From Bradyrhizobium commune (GTDB lineage: Bacteria > Pseudomonadota > Alphaproteobacteria > Rhizobiales > Xanthobacteraceae), in assembly GCF_015624505.1 (NCBI RefSeq), contig NZ_CP061379.1, forward strand, positions 3,038,001 through 3,102,000: 64,000 nt of DNA, in the 5' to 3' direction. The notes under the pieces are model-generated. The model was not told where the DNA came from, made no database searches, and worked only from the letters and a program-made list of their open reading frames with translations. Positions within the stretch are counted from its first letter, which is position 1. Each line of letters opens with the position of its first letter. A program made the position numbers and the translations under genes. Below are positions 14,177-29,243 of this stretch, piece by piece.

Positions 14177-18292
<4,116 letters not shown>

Positions 18293-18420: not shown

Positions 18421-22617
<4,197 letters not shown>

Positions 22618-22650
22618 TGCCTCATCCGTAAGACTACCGAGGAAAGACAA

Positions 22651-22675
22651 AAGGCCGGCGGAAGCCGGCCTTTTT
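22651..22675 (+). terminator. Rho-independent terminator after rpoC
   Basis: A perfect 9-bp stem AAGGCCGGC/GCCGGCCTT with a 4-base loop, whose descending arm runs into a T-run. It separates the rpoBC unit from the accessory module that follows. Confidence 0.9.
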
Positions 22676-22809
22676 GCTGCTTTGTTTGGTTGCTGCGGTG
22701 CGGGACCAACCTTTGTTCATCTTCCCTTCAGTCTGAAAAGCGCTTCTGGTAGGGGAGCTTAGACCGGTGGTCCCGTGACGGGGGCAGGGCCGGAGACCAC
22801 GGAACTCAA

Positions 22810-24870
22810 ATGCTTGATCTCGCAATCGTAGGCGGCGGCCCCGGCGGGCTGATGAGCGCCTGGTATCTGAAGCGTAAGCTCGGCGACCTCTGCCGCATCA
22901 CCATTTTCGAAGCCTCCGACCGGCTCGGCGGCAAGATCGTCACGCGCAAATTCGATTCCGCGCCGGCGATGTATGAAGCCGGCGTCGCCGAGATCTACGA
23001 CTACTCGATGACCGGGCCCGACCCGCTACGCGAGCTGATCCAGCATTTCGGCTTGCAGACCATTCCGATGGATGCGGAGCAGGTGCAGTTCGGCGGCGAG
23101 CTGCTCAACGACGTCGCCGGCATGCGCCGCAAATACGGCGCCATGACCGCGGCCGCGATCGAGTCGTTTCGCACGCGCTGCGCCGAGAAGATGACGCCGA
23201 TCGAATATTACGAAGGCGTCGGCGCGCACGACAATGAGAACCCCTGGGCCTACAAGACCGCCGAGCAGGTGCTCGACGAAGAGGTCGAGGACGAGACCGC
23301 CAAGCGCTTCTTCAAGGTGATGGCGCGCTCCGACATCGCGACCGAGAGCCACAACACCAACGGCCTCAACGCGCTGAAAAATTACCTGATGGACGTCGAC
23401 GGCTATATCGGCCTCTACTCCATCCAGAACGGCAACGAGCAGATCGTCGAGTGCCTCCAGTCGGAGGTCAATGCCGACATTCAGCTCAATCACCGCGTGC
23501 TCACCGTCGGCAAGGCTGAGACCGGCCGCTATCAGCTCAAGATGATGAACGGCAAGGGACCGGAGACGCGCGACTTCGACCTCGTGCTGGTCTGCCTGCC
23601 GCATTCCTGGCTCGCCACCATGGGGTGGGAGGGCGAGCAGCTCCGCAAGTCGATGGTCAAGCATGTGTCGTATTTCGATCGTCCCGCGCATTACCTGCGC
23701 GTCTCGATCCTGTTCGACACCCCGTTCTGGGGCGACAAGATTTCCGGCGCCTGGTTTATGTCGGAAGCCTTCGGCGGCTGCTGCGTCTACAACGAGGGCG
23801 CGCGCCACGATGTCGGCAAGCACGGCGTGTTGAACTGGCTGATTCCCGGCTCCGACGCGCTCGCTTTCGCCAATCTGTCGGATCAGGAGCTGTTCGACGC
23901 CGCGCTGAAATCGCTGCCGGCTTCGCTCGGCGATGCGCGCGCGCATTTCATGGAAGGCAAGATCCACCGCTGGCTGTCGTCGGTGAACGCAATCCCGGGC
24001 GGCGTGCCGGTGCGCGACGTCATGACCAACCACCGGCCCGAGCCGAAGGAGCACCCCGGCATCGTGCTGGTCGGCGACTATCTGTTCGATTCGACGCTGA
24101 ACGGCCTGCTCGACTCCTCCGATGCCGCGACCGATATCATCCTGACCGAGATGATGCGCCTGCGCCGCGAGCGCGTGCAGGGCGGCAAGCCGGTCTCCGA
24201 CAAGATCGACCGCGACTATTTCGAGAACTATCGCGGCCTCGGTCCCTATGGCGAGGCGTGGCAGCACTTCACCGATCCCGACTATCTGGCCAAGCTGATC
24301 GGCATCGTCTGGGGCAAGGCGAAGGGCGCCAAGCTCCTGGTCGCGGGCTCGGCCAGCGGCGAGCTGGTCGGTGCGCTGCGCGAGCGCGGCATCGATGCCT
24401 GGGGCATCGAGAACAACCGCGCCATCCATGCCAAGACGCCGAAAGCGCTGAAGAAGTACAACAAGCTCGGATCGATCCTGGACATGCCGTTCAAGGACGG
24501 CGCGTTCGACTTCGTGTTCGAGACGAGCCTCTGCCATGTTTCCCCGAAGCAGGTGGTCCGCGCCATCAAGGAGCTGAACCGCGTGGTCAAGACCGGCCTC
24601 ATGTTCGGCTCGATCACCTCTGACATGGCGCCGGCGCTGATCGACCGCTACGACTTGCTGCGCGGCGTGAAGAAGCTCGGCACCTGGTGGGAATGGTCGG
24701 AGCTGTTCTTCGGCAACGGCTTCGATCTCGCGATGCACCGCAACGATTGCACCGATGCGCTTTGGGAAGCGACGCTCGCCGCCAACAAGGGCCCCGGCCA
24801 GTGGTACGCGGACGCCGACTCCTTGCGTTATTCCTTCTTCGACAAGGTCGACGACGAAGACGACGACTAG
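22810..24870 (+). CDS. FAD-dependent amine oxidase-like oxidoreductase fused to a SAM methyltransferase domain
   Basis: A 686-residue two-domain protein. Residues 1 to about 450 look like a flavin amine oxidase/phytoene desaturase-type enzyme: GGGPGG at residues 8-13, the second dinucleotide motif EASDRLGGKIV, and a C-terminal FAD segment GIVLVGDYLFDSTLNGLLDS. After a linker, residues about 500-640 look like a class I methyltransferase: LLVAGSASGELVGAL as SAM loop, GIENNRA as acidic/aromatic region, and LDMPFKDGAFDFVFETSLCH. The GxGxG loop is degenerate (GSASG), so activity is not certain. The tail is acidic. It heads a module with an ABC exporter 135 bases downstream. I do not recognise a named homologue. 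Confidence 0.8.
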   Translation: MLDLAIVGGGPGGLMSAWYLKRKLGDLCRITIFEASDRLGGKIVTRKFDSAPAMYEAGVAEIYDYSMTGPDPLRELIQHFGLQTIPMDAEQVQFGGELLNDVAGMRRKYGAMTAAAIESFRTRCAEKMTPIEYYEGVGAHDNENPWAYKTAEQVLDEEVEDETAKRFFKVMARSDIATESHNTNGLNALKNYLMDVDGYIGLYSIQNGNEQIVECLQSEVNADIQLNHRVLTVGKAETGRYQLKMMNGKGPETRDFDLVLVCLPHSWLATMGWEGEQLRKSMVKHVSYFDRPAHYLRVSILFDTPFWGDKISGAWFMSEAFGGCCVYNEGARHDVGKHGVLNWLIPGSDALAFANLSDQELFDAALKSLPASLGDARAHFMEGKIHRWLSSVNAIPGGVPVRDVMTNHRPEPKEHPGIVLVGDYLFDSTLNGLLDSSDAATDIILTEMMRLRRERVQGGKPVSDKIDRDYFENYRGLGPYGEAWQHFTDPDYLAKLIGIVWGKAKGAKLLVAGSASGELVGALRERGIDAWGIENNRAIHAKTPKALKKYNKLGSILDMPFKDGAFDFVFETSLCHVSPKQVVRAIKELNRVVKTGLMFGSITSDMAPALIDRYDLLRGVKKLGTWWEWSELFFGNGFDLAMHRNDCTDALWEATLAANKGPGQWYADADSLRYSFFDKVDDEDDD

Positions 24871-24884
24871 CTTTAAGGATCGGG

Positions 24885-24913
24885 TGACTTCGCCAATTGT
24901 TTTGCCGAAGTCA
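24885..24913 (+). promoter_or_regulatory. Inverted repeat between fusion gene and ABC gene
   Basis: Eight-base arms TGACTTCG/CGAAGTCA with a 13-base loop containing a T4 run. It follows the stop codon of the oxidoreductase-methyltransferase gene. It is too weak to call a terminator and may be an operator or a stability structure. Confidence 0.3.
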
Positions 24914-25005
24914 TCGTGATCGCATAGACTCGGGGGCAGTAGCGGTGTGCCGCTATTTCCCTGCTTTCTCTGCGGTCATGCCGGCCGTCAGCATCGGTTG
25001 GTTTC

Positions 25006-27030
25006 ATGGCGTCCAGGCCTCTCTCTCCCGACAAACAGAAGCTCGCTGTGCAAGAGGCGGCCGAGCTCGAAGACAAGCTCGTCTCCGGCGAGAAGCCCGA
25101 GCTGGCAGAGGACGACGAGGACGAAGACCAGGACGACGAGCTTGAACTCGACGACGACGATGAGGACGAGGACCTCGTCGTCTTTACCGCCCGCGAAGCC
25201 GCCGGCGCGCTCGCGACCATCTGGGGTTTCGTCAATCCCTATCTCGCCAACTACAAGCGGACATTGTCGTACGTCGCGTTCGGCGTGACGGTCGAGACGC
25301 TGTTCAACGTCATCATGCCGCTCAGCCTGAAATTCCTCATCGACGACGCGCTCGGCGAGGAAGATTTTCAGGCGCTCTACAAGATTCTCGGCGTGCTCGC
25401 GGTCGCCGGCATCTTCACCTCGATCGTCGCTGTCTGGTACGAGCGCTGGGACGCGCGGTTGGCCGCCTGCATCATCTCAGACGTCCGCAAGCGGTTGTTC
25501 GAGCACGTCCAGGACCTGCCGGCGGCCTATTTCGGCCGCACCAAGCGCGGCGAGATCCTGTCGCGCTTCTCGGTCGATCTTTCGGCCTTCGAAGGTTCGG
25601 TCAAGACATTCGTCAACAGCGCCGCGTTGCCGTTTCTGGAATTGATTGCCGGCATCATCCTGATGGTGTTTTTGAACTGGCAGCTCGCGGTCGTTGCACT
25701 TCTGGTGTTCCCGATTACGCTGATCGGCCCCCGCATCCTGACGCCGAAGGCGGTCCAGGCCAATTACGAGCAGAAGCTCAACGAGAGCGCGCTGCTCGGC
25801 ATGGTGCAGGAGAACGTGGCGGCGCAGGCCGTCATCAAGGCGTTCAGCCTGCAGCGCAAGATGTTCGGCTTCTTTACCTTCCGCAACGACGAGACGCGTA
25901 ACAGGATTGCCGCAGCCGCGTTCCTGTCGACCATGGTGGAGCGGACCGTCACCATCTCTGTGCTGCTGCTGCACCTCGTGGTGCTGGCGATCGGCGCTTA
26001 TCTGGCTACCAAGGGCCAGATCACCATCGGTACTTTCGTCACCTTCGAGAGCGCGTTCTGGGAGGTCTCCTACAACATCGCCCATGTGATGCACTTCATC
26101 CCGGTGTCGATCTCCTCGGCTGCCGCGATCCGTCACATCCAAGAGCTCCTCGACGAGCCCACGCGCGGCGCCGACCGCCCCGGCGCGCCCGATCTGCCGC
26201 GCATCACCCACGACATCACCTTCGATCATGTCACGTTCCAGTACGACGGCAGCCAGACGCCGGTGCTGGACAATCTCAGCCTCAAGCTCAATGTCGGCAA
26301 GAGCATCGCCATCGTCGGCCCGTCGGGCTCCGGCAAGAGCACGCTGCTCAACCTGATCCTGCGGCTCTACGTGCCGGACGAAGGGCGCGTCACGATCGAC
26401 GGTGTCGACGTGCGCAAGGTGACGCTGGATTCGCTGCGCCGGAGCATGGCGGTCGTGTTCCAGGAGAACATGCTGTTCAACATGTCGATCCGCGAGAACA
26501 TCCGGCTCGGCAAGGAGGGCGCGACCGACGAGGAGGTGGAGGAGGCGGCCAGGAAGGCCGAGATCCACCGCTACATCATGAGCCTGCCGCAGCGCTACGA
26601 CACGCCGGTCGGCGAGCGCGGCGATACGTTGTCGGGCGGCCAACGCCAGCGCATCGCGATCGCGCGCGCGGTCATCCGTAATCCCTCCGTGCTGCTGCTC
26701 GACGAAGCCACCTCGGCGCTGGACCAGACCACGGAGGCCGCGATCAACCGCACGCTGCTCAAGGTCGCGAAGGGCCGCACCATGATCTGGTCGACCCATC
26801 GCCTGACCTCGGTGGTCGAGATGGACGAGATCATCGTGATCTCGGGGGGCAGGGCGATCGAGCGCGGCTCGCATGCCGAGCTGCTCGCCAGGAACGGTAG
26901 CTATCGCAAGCTGTGGAACGACCAGATCCACCAGCCGCATGGCGCGGTGGCTCAGGCCGACGACGACAGCGACGATGACGACGAGGAAGACCTCGAGGAT
27001 GATGAGGACGAGGACGACGAGGAGGAGTGA
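25006..27030 (+). CDS. ABC transporter, fused membrane/ATPase half-exporter with acidic termini
   Basis: A 674-residue ABCB-type half-transporter that should dimerise in the inner membrane and export a substrate. Six membrane segments lie between about residues 75 and 370. The ATPase domain has Walker A GPSGSGKS near 438, signature LSGGQRQR near 542, Walker B LLLDEATSALD near 565, and switch His in STHRL near 598. Residues about 34-58 and the last 23 residues are almost pure Asp/Glu, which is unusual for this family. The last 79 bases overlap a convergent gene on the other strand. The substrate is unknown; the flavoenzyme neighbours suggest a modified small molecule or lipid. Confidence 0.9.
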   Translation: MASRPLSPDKQKLAVQEAAELEDKLVSGEKPELAEDDEDEDQDDELELDDDDEDEDLVVFTAREAAGALATIWGFVNPYLANYKRTLSYVAFGVTVETLFNVIMPLSLKFLIDDALGEEDFQALYKILGVLAVAGIFTSIVAVWYERWDARLAACIISDVRKRLFEHVQDLPAAYFGRTKRGEILSRFSVDLSAFEGSVKTFVNSAALPFLELIAGIILMVFLNWQLAVVALLVFPITLIGPRILTPKAVQANYEQKLNESALLGMVQENVAAQAVIKAFSLQRKMFGFFTFRNDETRNRIAAAAFLSTMVERTVTISVLLLHLVVLAIGAYLATKGQITIGTFVTFESAFWEVSYNIAHVMHFIPVSISSAAAIRHIQELLDEPTRGADRPGAPDLPRITHDITFDHVTFQYDGSQTPVLDNLSLKLNVGKSIAIVGPSGSGKSTLLNLILRLYVPDEGRVTIDGVDVRKVTLDSLRRSMAVVFQENMLFNMSIRENIRLGKEGATDEEVEEAARKAEIHRYIMSLPQRYDTPVGERGDTLSGGQRQRIAIARAVIRNPSVLLLDEATSALDQTTEAAINRTLLKVAKGRTMIWSTHRLTSVVEMDEIIVISGGRAIERGSHAELLARNGSYRKLWNDQIHQPHGAVAQADDDSDDDDEEDLEDDEDEDDEEE

Positions 27031-28196
27031 CCGAGGAAATTCGGCTCCAGATGGAACGCTCCTCCAAGCCGCCGCAACAATCCCTGGGCTGACCAAGCCA
27101 GGAAGCGGGCCCAGCGCTGCGCCGTCCAGTACGGGTTGGTGGCGACCGATACAGAGCGGAAGTGGAACGCCTTCGCGGCTGACCATTCGTCGCAGGCCCG
27201 CTTGACCGGATCGGCGTAGAAGGCTGCGATCTTGCCTGCATCCATCCCGTCGGACGCCAGCCATTGCGGGATGTAGACGTTGCAGAGCCGCTCGACGTCG
27301 GTGAAGACCTTGTCGCAACCTGTGCCGGCGACAGGGCAGGAGGTCGAAAAGGCGTCACCGACCAGCACCAGGCCATTCTGATGGCTGGCATCATTCACAT
27401 AGAGATCGACGGGGCGGATCTTCATCTCGCCTGCGATGTCGAACGGGCCGGTGATGCGCTTCAGTCGCGGCAGCGCGGCGTGCAATGTCTCGCTGGGCGC
27501 GCGGCGCAGTTCGCGCAGCCAGGGATCGTCGAAGCTGCGATAGACAAACAGATTGGCACGCATCCGCGTACCGATCGGAAACAGCGTGATGTAGGGGATG
27601 CGGTCGCTCGGCCGCTCCGAGAAATAGGTCAGCGCGGGGAAATCGAATGAGGCTCGCCCCGCCGGCACGATATCGAACCCGACCGAGATCGAATGGCAGG
27701 CGCTGATGACGTTGCGGGTGATGCCGAGCTGGTGGCGCAGGCCGACATTCAATCCATTGGCGAGCACGACCAGGCGGGCGGATACGGTCCCTTCGTTGGA
27801 GATCGTGATCCGCTGCCGCTCCGGGCTGGTCTCGATCGACACCGCCTTGGCCCAGATGCGTTCGACAGTCTCGGGAATCTCGTCGCGGATCGCGTTGACC
27901 AGGCAATCGTAGAGGATGTTGAACTGGCGGCTCGGCGCCTTGTCGAGGAGACGGCCGAAGCGCGCGATCCAGTTCTCGCCGGCAAAGGTCGCGCGGCGCA
28001 GCACCGGGTCGGCTACCCCAGTTCGCTCGAATCGCTCGACCTGCCCGTGGCCGCTGATCTTTTCGACGCGAAAATCGGCCGGATAGGTTGCGTGCGGATC
28101 GATCAGAATCGCCGAAATGCCGGCGCGGCCGAGCATCGCGGCGGCGGTTGAGCCGGACAGTCCGCCGCCGATAATGGCAATGTCGGTGTACCGCAT
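26952..28196 (-). CDS. FAD-dependent monooxygenase/halogenase-like oxidoreductase
   Basis: A 414-residue flavoprotein of the p-hydroxybenzoate hydroxylase/geranylgeranyl reductase type. It starts MRYTDIAIIGGGLSGSTAAA (dinucleotide fold), has an EKISGHGQVERF segment and the second FAD motif NGLVLVGDAFSTSCPVAGTG. The body ends near FHLEPNFLGH. The remaining residues are nearly all Ser because they are read antisense to the acidic tail of the convergent ABC transporter. The true C-terminus may still be this one, since no earlier stop exists. It is convergent with the exporter, so it needs its own promoter, shared with the 675-base region before rpsL. Substrate unknown. Confidence 0.82.
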   Translation of the reverse strand: MRYTDIAIIGGGLSGSTAAAMLGRAGISAILIDPHATYPADFRVEKISGHGQVERFERTGVADPVLRRATFAGENWIARFGRLLDKAPSRQFNILYDCLVNAIRDEIPETVERIWAKAVSIETSPERQRITISNEGTVSARLVVLANGLNVGLRHQLGITRNVISACHSISVGFDIVPAGRASFDFPALTYFSERPSDRIPYITLFPIGTRMRANLFVYRSFDDPWLRELRRAPSETLHAALPRLKRITGPFDIAGEMKIRPVDLYVNDASHQNGLVLVGDAFSTSCPVAGTGCDKVFTDVERLCNVYIPQWLASDGMDAGKIAAFYADPVKRACDEWSAAKAFHFRSVSVATNPYWTAQRWARFLAWSAQGLLRRLGGAFHLEPNFLGHSSSSSSSSSSSRSSSSSSSLSSSA

Positions 28197-28871
28197 GGCG
28201 CTTGTCTCTGCCGAAGGTGGCAGATTGCCGCATCAAGAGGAAAAAAAGCCTTAGCGGGAGTTATAAAAGTATATTTCTCCCGGGTATAAATTGGTTTAGG
28301 GCTGGCGGAACCGGGGCCTCGTTCCCATATGGGCGAGGCGCGGTGAGGGCGGCCAAGAGGCGATTTCGGCAGGCACTAGAAGCGCTTTGTGACTGTCGTT
28401 TCGCCTTGACTTGATCGATTCTCACTTATAGAAAGCGCCTCACTTAACGACAGGCGGTGAGCATCGCCAACGTCGGAACGGGCCACCCGTTTTGACCCTT
28501 TCAGGGGTCGCAGAGACGGGCACCAACCTCGACGAATGCCGCTCAAACGCTGTCGATTATAGCTAGGCAATGCCAGGCGATTTTAGTTCTCTTGAGCAAG
28601 TTCTCTTGAGATCGAACTCGGATGCATGACCTCGGTATGCGGGCTGACGGCGTTTTTCGCTGATTGGCCCAAAGACTGTGGTCCTCTGTGCGTCGAAGCG
28701 CTTTCCGCTCAGTGATGGAGCGGTTGGCGCGATTTCGCTTTGTGCGGATTGTTCCGTGCGAGGCGGCCTCATCGGATGGGTCGTCCGAATAGAATTTGCG
28801 GTCCCGGCAACGGGCCGCGGCAAGACAGCGGGCCCGGAAGGGGCCGCGATAGAACAAAGGGTAAGGCCAGG
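28197..28871. other. 675-base divergent intergenic region before rpsL
   Basis: No credible gene. It separates the minus-strand flavoprotein gene from rpsL. The first 120 bases are AT-rich, with stretches such as TATAAAAGTATATTT, and are the likely promoter for the minus-strand gene, though no clear pair of boxes stands out. The rpsL promoter candidate lies at 28406-28432. The remaining 440 bases form a long str-operon leader without any recognisable structure. Confidence 0.5.
28406..28432 (+). promoter_or_regulatory. Probable promoter of the rpsL-rpsG-fusA-tuf operon
   Basis: CTTGAC, a 16-base spacer, then TATAGA. Both boxes match the alphaproteobacterial housekeeping consensus well. It lies about 440 bases upstream of rpsL, leaving a long leader. 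Predicted from sequence only. Confidence 0.55.
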
Positions 28872-29243
28872 ATGCCGACGATCAACCAGCTGATCGCTCA
28901 ACCGCGTGAAGTGCAGAAGTCGCGCAAGAAGGTGCCGGCGCTGCAACAGTCGCCGCAGAAGCGCGGCGTTTGCACGCGCGTCTACACCACGACCCCGAAG
29001 AAGCCGAACTCGGCGCTTCGTAAGGTTGCCAAGGTGCGCCTGACCAACGGCTTCGAGGTGATCGGCTACATCCCGGGTGAGGGCCATAACCTCCAGGAGC
29101 ACTCGGTGGTCATGATCCGCGGCGGCCGCGTCAAGGACTTGCCTGGCGTGCGCTACCACATCCTCCGCGGCGTTCTGGATACCCAGGGCGTCAAGAACCG
29201 TAAGCAGCGTCGTTCGAAGTACGGCGCGAAGCGTCCGAAGTAA
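28872..29243 (+). CDS. rpsL: 30S ribosomal protein S12
   Basis: The 123-residue S12 of the decoding centre. [19 protein letters not shown] carries the two lysines whose replacement gives streptomycin resistance elsewhere, here in the sensitive form. The second key loop reads [21 protein letters not shown] with the Asp that is methylthiolated in many bacteria. The start ATG follows AGGCCAGG; a longer in-frame extension upstream is not S12-like. First gene of the str operon. Confidence 0.98.

Follow-up and report, generated by a model that had tools for sequence, protein, structure and literature searches.

The flavin N5 lysine is near-universal in the flavoprotein amine oxidoreductase superfamily, according to an excerpt of PMC12224317. 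Here we describe a locus in which a protein of this fold is joined to a methyltransferase and encoded next to a transporter. A 64-kb window (throughout, the whole stretch of DNA analysed), part of the single-contig, 7.62-Mb genome of Bradyrhizobium commune (contig NZ_CP061379.1), holds between rpoC and rpsL the gene for a flavoprotein-methyltransferase fusion ("the fusion"), followed by the gene for an ATP-binding cassette (ABC) exporter and by a convergent gene for a flavin adenine dinucleotide (FAD) monooxygenase-like protein (FMO). Our proposal, built from the sequences, is that the first two form a two-gene core, in which a bifunctional enzyme would oxidise and methylate a small molecule, perhaps an amphipathic one, and a dedicated exporter would move it out; we give this reading a probability of about one in two. 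For USDA110, passages that include one from a transposon-sequencing paper (PMC8225791) present bll5409 as an RNA polymerase subunit and bll5404 as ribosomal S7, and from these flanks the tags of the region are presumably bll5408, bll5407, and blr5406. None of the three tags was found named in the open-access literature searched, nor did its titles and abstracts yield a description of the fusion-exporter unit, and within that literature the statement of the original prediction for this DNA, that no described pathway was recognised, still stands.

Linkage and distribution of the fusion and exporter genes

In the window, 6254 bp separate the end of rpoC (22617) from the start of rpsL (28872), and the ORF list places three open reading frames (ORFs) between them (Table 1). 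The original prediction had described a gap of about 6.2 kb with the fusion, an ABC exporter, and a convergent FMO, which is borne out, and its gene coordinates and domain calls agree with the ORF list and a Pfam scan. It had missed the tail-to-tail overlap of the exporter and FMO genes, and with it the antisense relationship between a poly-serine and an aspartate/glutamate run.

We surveyed 149 genomes of the window's family and 397 of its order. A close full-length fusion (at least 74% identity; in two frames in G035) is present in 44 of the 149 family genomes, with a distant fusion in three more, and the exporter (E<=1e-150) occurs in the identical 44; in every case it shares contig and strand with the fusion and begins 58-616 bp 3' of it. 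The 44 genomes belong to 12 of 47 genera, and 44 of the 48 genomes sampled from those 12 genera carry the pair, including all seven from the window's genus. On the exporter's contig, rpsL is found 0.8-13.8 kb away in 40 of the 44 pair genomes, the distance omitting G242, G305, and G267 (rpsL on another contig) and G321 (no rpsL match). Thirty-four of the 397 order genomes match the fusion family. Twelve of these are in a family, f20, that we infer to be Phreatobacter-like, and all twelve have an adjoining exporter (43-45% identical), where the DNA fetched contains neither rpoC nor rpsL; the linkage is thus strict within the clade around the window and recurs at a second locus. In G1075, of family f42, a fusion and an exporter that are 63% and 57% identical to those of the window again lie between rpoC and rpsL. 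Thin phylum- and class-wide samples gave matches in 8 of 299 genomes, all eight from the window's own family, and in 3 of 337, respectively. The original prediction had suggested asking whether all three genes co-occur away from rpoC-rpsL: the fusion and exporter do, adjacently and in the same genomes, and FMO proved separable from them.

For closer comparison we used 80 loci, the best 80 of 247 relatives, picked by likeness to the window's fusion. Ratios of nonsynonymous to synonymous substitution (dN/dS), computed against the window on 16 of these, range over 0.09-0.22 in the fusion, 0.07-0.23 in the core of the exporter, 0.11-0.43 in FMO, and 0.08-0.13 in rpoC, and the fusion-exporter pair is under purifying selection. 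Seventy-nine of the 80 loci are labelled Bradyrhizobium and one, L014, comes from a contig labelled Frankia sp. RB7; its locus is 95% identical with the Bradyrhizobium arrangement, and it is probably a mislabelled or mixed assembly.

The fusion protein

The fusion is a single ORF with Pfam matches to Amino_oxidase (E=1.3e-27) and Methyltransf_11 (E=4.7e-9). Its flavin half has the amine-oxidase fold with an FAD-binding Rossmann motif, as expected of the superfamily. It departs from the superfamily at the position of the flavin-adjacent lysine, which is occupied by Arg297 and is arginine in all 71 aligned sequences (the window plus 70 of 241 proteins found). We take the aligned lysine to be the flavin N5 lysine, following the numbering of monoamine oxidase B (MAO-B) and L-amino-acid oxidase (LAAO). 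Its replacement by arginine in 71 of 71 sequences makes an O2-using amine oxidase unlikely. Arg300 of rice phytoene desaturase was considered as a parallel to Arg297 and rejected, as it apparently precedes the conserved GG motif and so occupies a different position (judged from a hand translation of a primer printed in an excerpt of PMC5703498).

The C-terminal half matches PF08241 with 37.2 bits against a cut-off of 21.2, and the glycine-rich S-adenosylmethionine (SAM) motif residues G513, S514, and G517 are present in 71 of 71 sequences, both as expected of a SAM methyltransferase. In the model of the full fusion this half is confident. Two other identities were set aside. Protoporphyrinogen oxidase (HemY, a database name) scores 35.7 of 97.85 bits with TIGR00562 and 41.5 of 517 with NF008841. 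For a methyltransferase of the furan/cyclopropane fatty-acid type, the eight Pfam families found on the fusion at E<=0.01 do not include the cyclopropane-fatty-acid synthase domain, which we take to be PF02353. Two metagenomic relatives of the fusion (P0121 and P0131) have a second methyltransferase stretch in their C-terminal parts.

The exporter

The exporter carries ABC_membrane and ABC_tran in one chain, the domain content of a type IV ABC exporter. Its N-terminal tail, ahead of the membrane domain, is acidic, with 9-18 aspartate or glutamate residues per 20 in all 80 loci, and this is shared by the partner exporters elsewhere (10-14 in 12 of 12 from f20, 18 in f42, and 7-18 in eight other loci of family f1); seven paralogues from the window's genome have 0-6 and hence no acidic tail. 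The C-terminal end is likewise acidic in all 80 loci, whether FMO is there or not, at 8-19 such residues per 20. In a tree from which the short paralogue L005 and duplicate paralogues were omitted, the partners from the window, f20, and f42 are set apart from six own-genome paralogues with support of 100/99.

An improbable alternative is that the exporter is a general flippase of lipid A or other lipids, as MsbA is, and that the fusion is unrelated to it and kept there by operon position. MsbA_rel (TIGR02204; 384 of 780 bits) and MsbA (TIGR02203; 378.4 of 602 bits) are indeed its top two NCBIfam matches, and no exporter of the genome reaches the MsbA cut-off, so that none is marked out as MsbA. 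However, both scores are far under the cut-offs, and with TIGR02203 the exporter (379 bits) ranks fifth of eight in its own genome, where two others fit better (486 bits), so that an MsbA identity finds no support. The adjacency of the pair at two unrelated loci also argues against a fusion retained by position.

The rpoC-rpsL interval in relatives

Six genomes from other genera that lack the pair have rpoC-rpsL spacings of 526, 784, 1219, 2163, 2266, and 4784 bp. In three genomes of g118, which also lack the pair and have FMO inside (broken in G257), the spacings are 5246, 5780, and 6506 bp, and in seven measurable pair-bearing loci of eight fetched from other genera they are 5.4-14.4 kb. The relatives L220, L221, and L224 and the pair-bearing L211 were omitted because rpoC lies outside the fetched stretch. 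Genes that vary within the interval encode Acetyltransf_6, a Crp-like regulator, glycosyltransferases, Wzx-like and Wzy_C (below cut-off) proteins, and FkbM. The slot has the look of accessory DNA, with the pair as the sole constant across the inspected pair-bearing loci. Base composition shows no sign of a recent acquisition, the G+C content being an ordinary 0.59-0.65.

In L212, L213, and L209, genes of the polysaccharide type (for glycosyltransferase 2, Wzx-like, Wzy_C, and FkbM proteins) lie between the exporter and rpsL, and a role of the pair in modifying and exporting an envelope polysaccharide or glycolipid would fit relatives whose interval includes glycosyltransferase 2, a flippase resembling Wzx, a sub-cut-off Wzy_C, an FkbM methyltransferase, or Acetyltransf_6. 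Yet none of these genes recurs across the inspected loci and none lies between rpoC and rpsL in the window, and the inspected f20 loci adjoin tripartite ATP-independent periplasmic (TRAP)-transporter-like genes and a metallo-beta-lactamase-fold or FabI-like gene (TRAP and FabI recognised by eye). We consider this role to have about the same low probability as the flippase. In the intervals of L209, L210, L212, L213, L218, and L259 there are also genes of ~365-432 aa that share, by eye, the N-terminal motif I-Y-E-A-A-x-V-P-x-x-W-P; the L218 interval lacks the pair, and the L213 copy has no Pfam match. These genes are possibly regulators.

FMO as an optional neighbour

FMO matches FAD_binding_3 (PF01494; E=1.1e-16, 61.4 bits against a cut-off of 22); it stays under the cut-off for a hydroxylase of the ubiquinone-biosynthesis type (TIGR01988, 68.7 of 224.65 bits). 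Could the fusion, the exporter, and FMO all act on one molecule, as a three-gene pathway? FMO (E<=1e-100) is found in 41 of the 149 family genomes and is commoner with the pair (24 of 44 genomes) than without it (17 of 105; P=4.8e-6 by Fisher's test, with no correction for phylogeny), and of the 24 genomes with both, 15 have FMO no more than 2 kb from the exporter and the other nine do not. Against this, a close FMO is missing from 20 of the 44 pair genomes, G312 and G296 lack the pair and have FMO in the rpoC-rpsL interval, and in the 80 loci, all with the pair, FMO is full in 47, fragmentary in 8, and absent in 25; its dN/dS is also higher. FMO is therefore neither necessary for the pair nor restricted to pair genomes, and its independent occurrence, which the original prediction had named as a refuting condition, places it outside the core unit, as an optional neighbour; we rate the three-gene pathway slightly below the flippase and polysaccharide alternatives. 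The insulated tailoring-and-export unit of the original prediction accordingly holds for the fusion and exporter and fails for FMO, which is absent or broken in 33 of the 80 loci.

The FMO frame overlaps the C-terminal end of the exporter, on the opposite strand, by 46-97 nt in 42 of the 47 loci with a full FMO, with no overlap in five, and in the overlapping examples inspected FMO ends in poly-serine. Because the acidic exporter tail persists without FMO, the poly-serine tail is best seen as a by-product of the overlap, which illustrates that a gene with an acidic tail can impose a poly-serine end on the protein encoded opposite it. In L087 (Bradyrhizobium macuxiense; 14337-18046) a second FMO copy lies in pieces beside the full one.

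Insulation from rpoC and rpsL

The original prediction also gave rpoC its own terminator and rpsL a candidate promoter, and conservation backs both. The hairpin 3' of rpoC has an 11-bp stem followed by a T-tract, folding of the segment 22618-22700 gives -36.8 kcal/mol (z=-4.15), and 79 of 80 loci have, within 160 nt 3' of rpoC, a perfect stem of 8 bp or more, versus 17 of 240 random stretches. TTGAC-N-TATAGA is found within 700 nt 5' of rpsL in 78 of 80 loci versus 10 of 400 random 700-nt stretches, the motif having been chosen post hoc from the window, with a short 15-nt spacer, and its conservation may have other causes. Generic scans were at chance level (promoters, 1 found versus 1.4 expected; terminators, 7 versus 5.6). 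The motif lies ~460 nt upstream of rpsL, within ~675 bp that have no obvious gene (28197-28871), and would therefore imply a long rpsL leader; at the Rfam gathering score tRNA-Trp is the only match in the window, and there is none in 28197-28871.

Inverted repeats with arms of at least 7 lie between the fusion and exporter genes in 60 of 80 loci versus 16 of 80 controls. We make no claim for an operator there, as the arms differ from locus to locus.

Table 1. Coordinates of features of the locus and of genes downstream of distant fusions
Feature	Coordinates	Strand	Remarks
rpoC, upstream flank	18421..22617	+	upstream of the fusion in 80/80 loci (L009-L088)
Hairpin and T-tract (intrinsic terminator) 3' of rpoC	22649..22679		folding; stem count across loci
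Fusion gene, 686 aa	22810..24870	+	N-terminal FAD domain ~1-453; C-terminal SAM methyltransferase domain ~490-680
Inverted repeat between fusion and exporter genes	24885..24913		8-bp arms, 13-nt spacer
Partner ABC exporter, 674 aa	25006..27030	+	fused transmembrane (TMD) and nucleotide-binding (NBD) domains; acidic N- and C-terminal tails
Convergent overlap, 79 nt	26952..27030		exporter acidic tail on +, FMO poly-Ser tail on -
FMO (FAD_binding_3, UbiH-like monooxygenase-like), 414 aa	26952..28196	-	accessory neighbour outside the core pair
Promoter-like motif 5' of rpsL	28406..28432	+	TTGACT, 15 nt, TATAGA; kept across loci
rpsL, downstream flank	28872..29243	+	
278-300 aa gene 3' of distant fusion, L154	8169-9062		
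278-300 aa gene 3' of distant fusion, L160	11094-11996		
278-300 aa gene 3' of distant fusion, L162	10159-11031		
278-300 aa gene 3' of distant fusion, L168	11057-11908		
278-300 aa gene 3' of distant fusion, L169	11312-12154		
278-300 aa gene 3' of distant fusion, L260	10002-10838		

Proposed function

The weakest alternative, that the enzyme family tailors poly- or oligo-amino acids made by nonribosomal peptide synthetases of the Pls/PosA type, was followed from the metagenomic relative P0225 (1307 aa), in which a TIGR02353 region (residues 1-504; E=3.8e-100, 336 bits versus a cut-off of 423) precedes the flavin domain, and would suit the amine-/amino-acid-oxidase fold of the fusion, but 21 of the 149 family genomes have TIGR02353 (E<=1e-20) and all 44 with the pair, including the window's, lack it, which makes such a link very unlikely for this clade.

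We return to the two-gene unit. The fusion would probably be cytosolic, and its FAD domain would take two electrons from the substrate, by dehydrogenation or desaturation, and pass them to an acceptor other than O2. The C-terminal domain would methylate the same molecule or its product, with SAM as donor, and the exporter, presumably a homodimer with acidic cytosolic tails, would then carry the finished product, a small molecule or lipid, through the inner membrane. FMO may add a hydroxyl in some strains and would be dispensable. That both halves are catalytic and act on a common substrate, and that transport is outward, are likewise expectations of this reading. From the class of the exporter we guess at a substrate that is lipid-like or amphipathic.

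Several observations weigh against this reading. Dehydrogenases of the superfamily also retain the lysine, and the slow-O2 example carries glutamate, not arginine, at its position (both from an excerpt of PMC12224317); with the lysine kept in dehydrogenases, its loss in the fusion is at most suggestive of the chemistry. The methyltransferase half folded alone gives a poor model (pLDDT, the predicted local distance difference test, 59.5), and in L163, from the pair genome G035, the fusion is split between two frames, with the junction near residue 349, so that the gene is broken or the sequence has an error. The outgroup of the exporter tree is own-genome paralogues alone, on very long branches, and we use its branch support only. 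The pair is missing from four of the six g118 genomes, the sole genomes without it among the 48 of the 12 genera. Seven distant loci (L154, L160, L161, L162, L168, L169, and L260), from Xanthobacter-like g138, f50, f2, and two further families, have a fusion and no such exporter in 18-20 kb, the short contigs L152 and L229 having been left out of the adjacency count; the exporter is thus not obligatory for the enzyme family. Six of these fusion-only loci were inspected and have a different gene, of 278-300 aa, directly downstream (Table 1); these genes are alike by eye, and no Pfam match was found in the three copies tested (L154, L160, and L168). Finally, the linkage of fusion and exporter can reflect co-expression and not a common substrate.

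With a little less assurance than for the two-gene unit itself, the pair may represent an undescribed small-molecule or lipid pathway, in which a dehydrogenase-methyltransferase without the amine-oxidase lysine works with a dedicated, acidic-tailed exporter, under purifying selection in an RNA polymerase/ribosomal slot, nearly throughout the 12 genera around Bradyrhizobium and sporadically in other families of the order. The pair is widely kept, yet we found no functional description of it in the open-access literature searched. It hints at a compound that alphaproteobacteria of soils and symbioses may produce and export, and offers a clean two-gene target for metabolite comparison, and the lysine-to-arginine replacement is a specific test of how the amine-oxidase fold controls its electron acceptor.

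Comparison with known systems

The fusion is 13-21% identical to flavoprotein amine oxidoreductases (monoamine oxidase, putrescine oxidase, L-amino-acid oxidase, VioA, and protoporphyrinogen oxidase), from which it differs by the arginine at the N5-lysine position and by the attached methyltransferase domain. With class I SAM methyltransferases (LahSB, TleD, RebM, and UbiE-like) it shares PF08241, and its top profile match among solved methyltransferases is LahSB (6uak, E=2.4e-10); fold matches of the methyltransferase half to 3ege and TleD come from the weak model of the lone domain and serve as a hint only. Unlike these enzymes, its methyltransferase is the C-terminal half of a flavoprotein and is followed by a conserved Trp-rich part of its own. 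FMO resembles FAD monooxygenases of the UbiH/VisC type in PF01494 and a weak TIGR01988 match, and is unlike them in falling below the TIGR01988 cut-off and in its antisense-derived poly-serine tail. The exporter has the same fused TMD-NBD half-transporter plan as type IV exporters of the MsbA/Sav1866 kind and matches Sav1866, TM_0288, and MsbA, whereas its acidic N-terminal tail, joined in family f1 by an acidic C-terminal tail, sets it apart from them.

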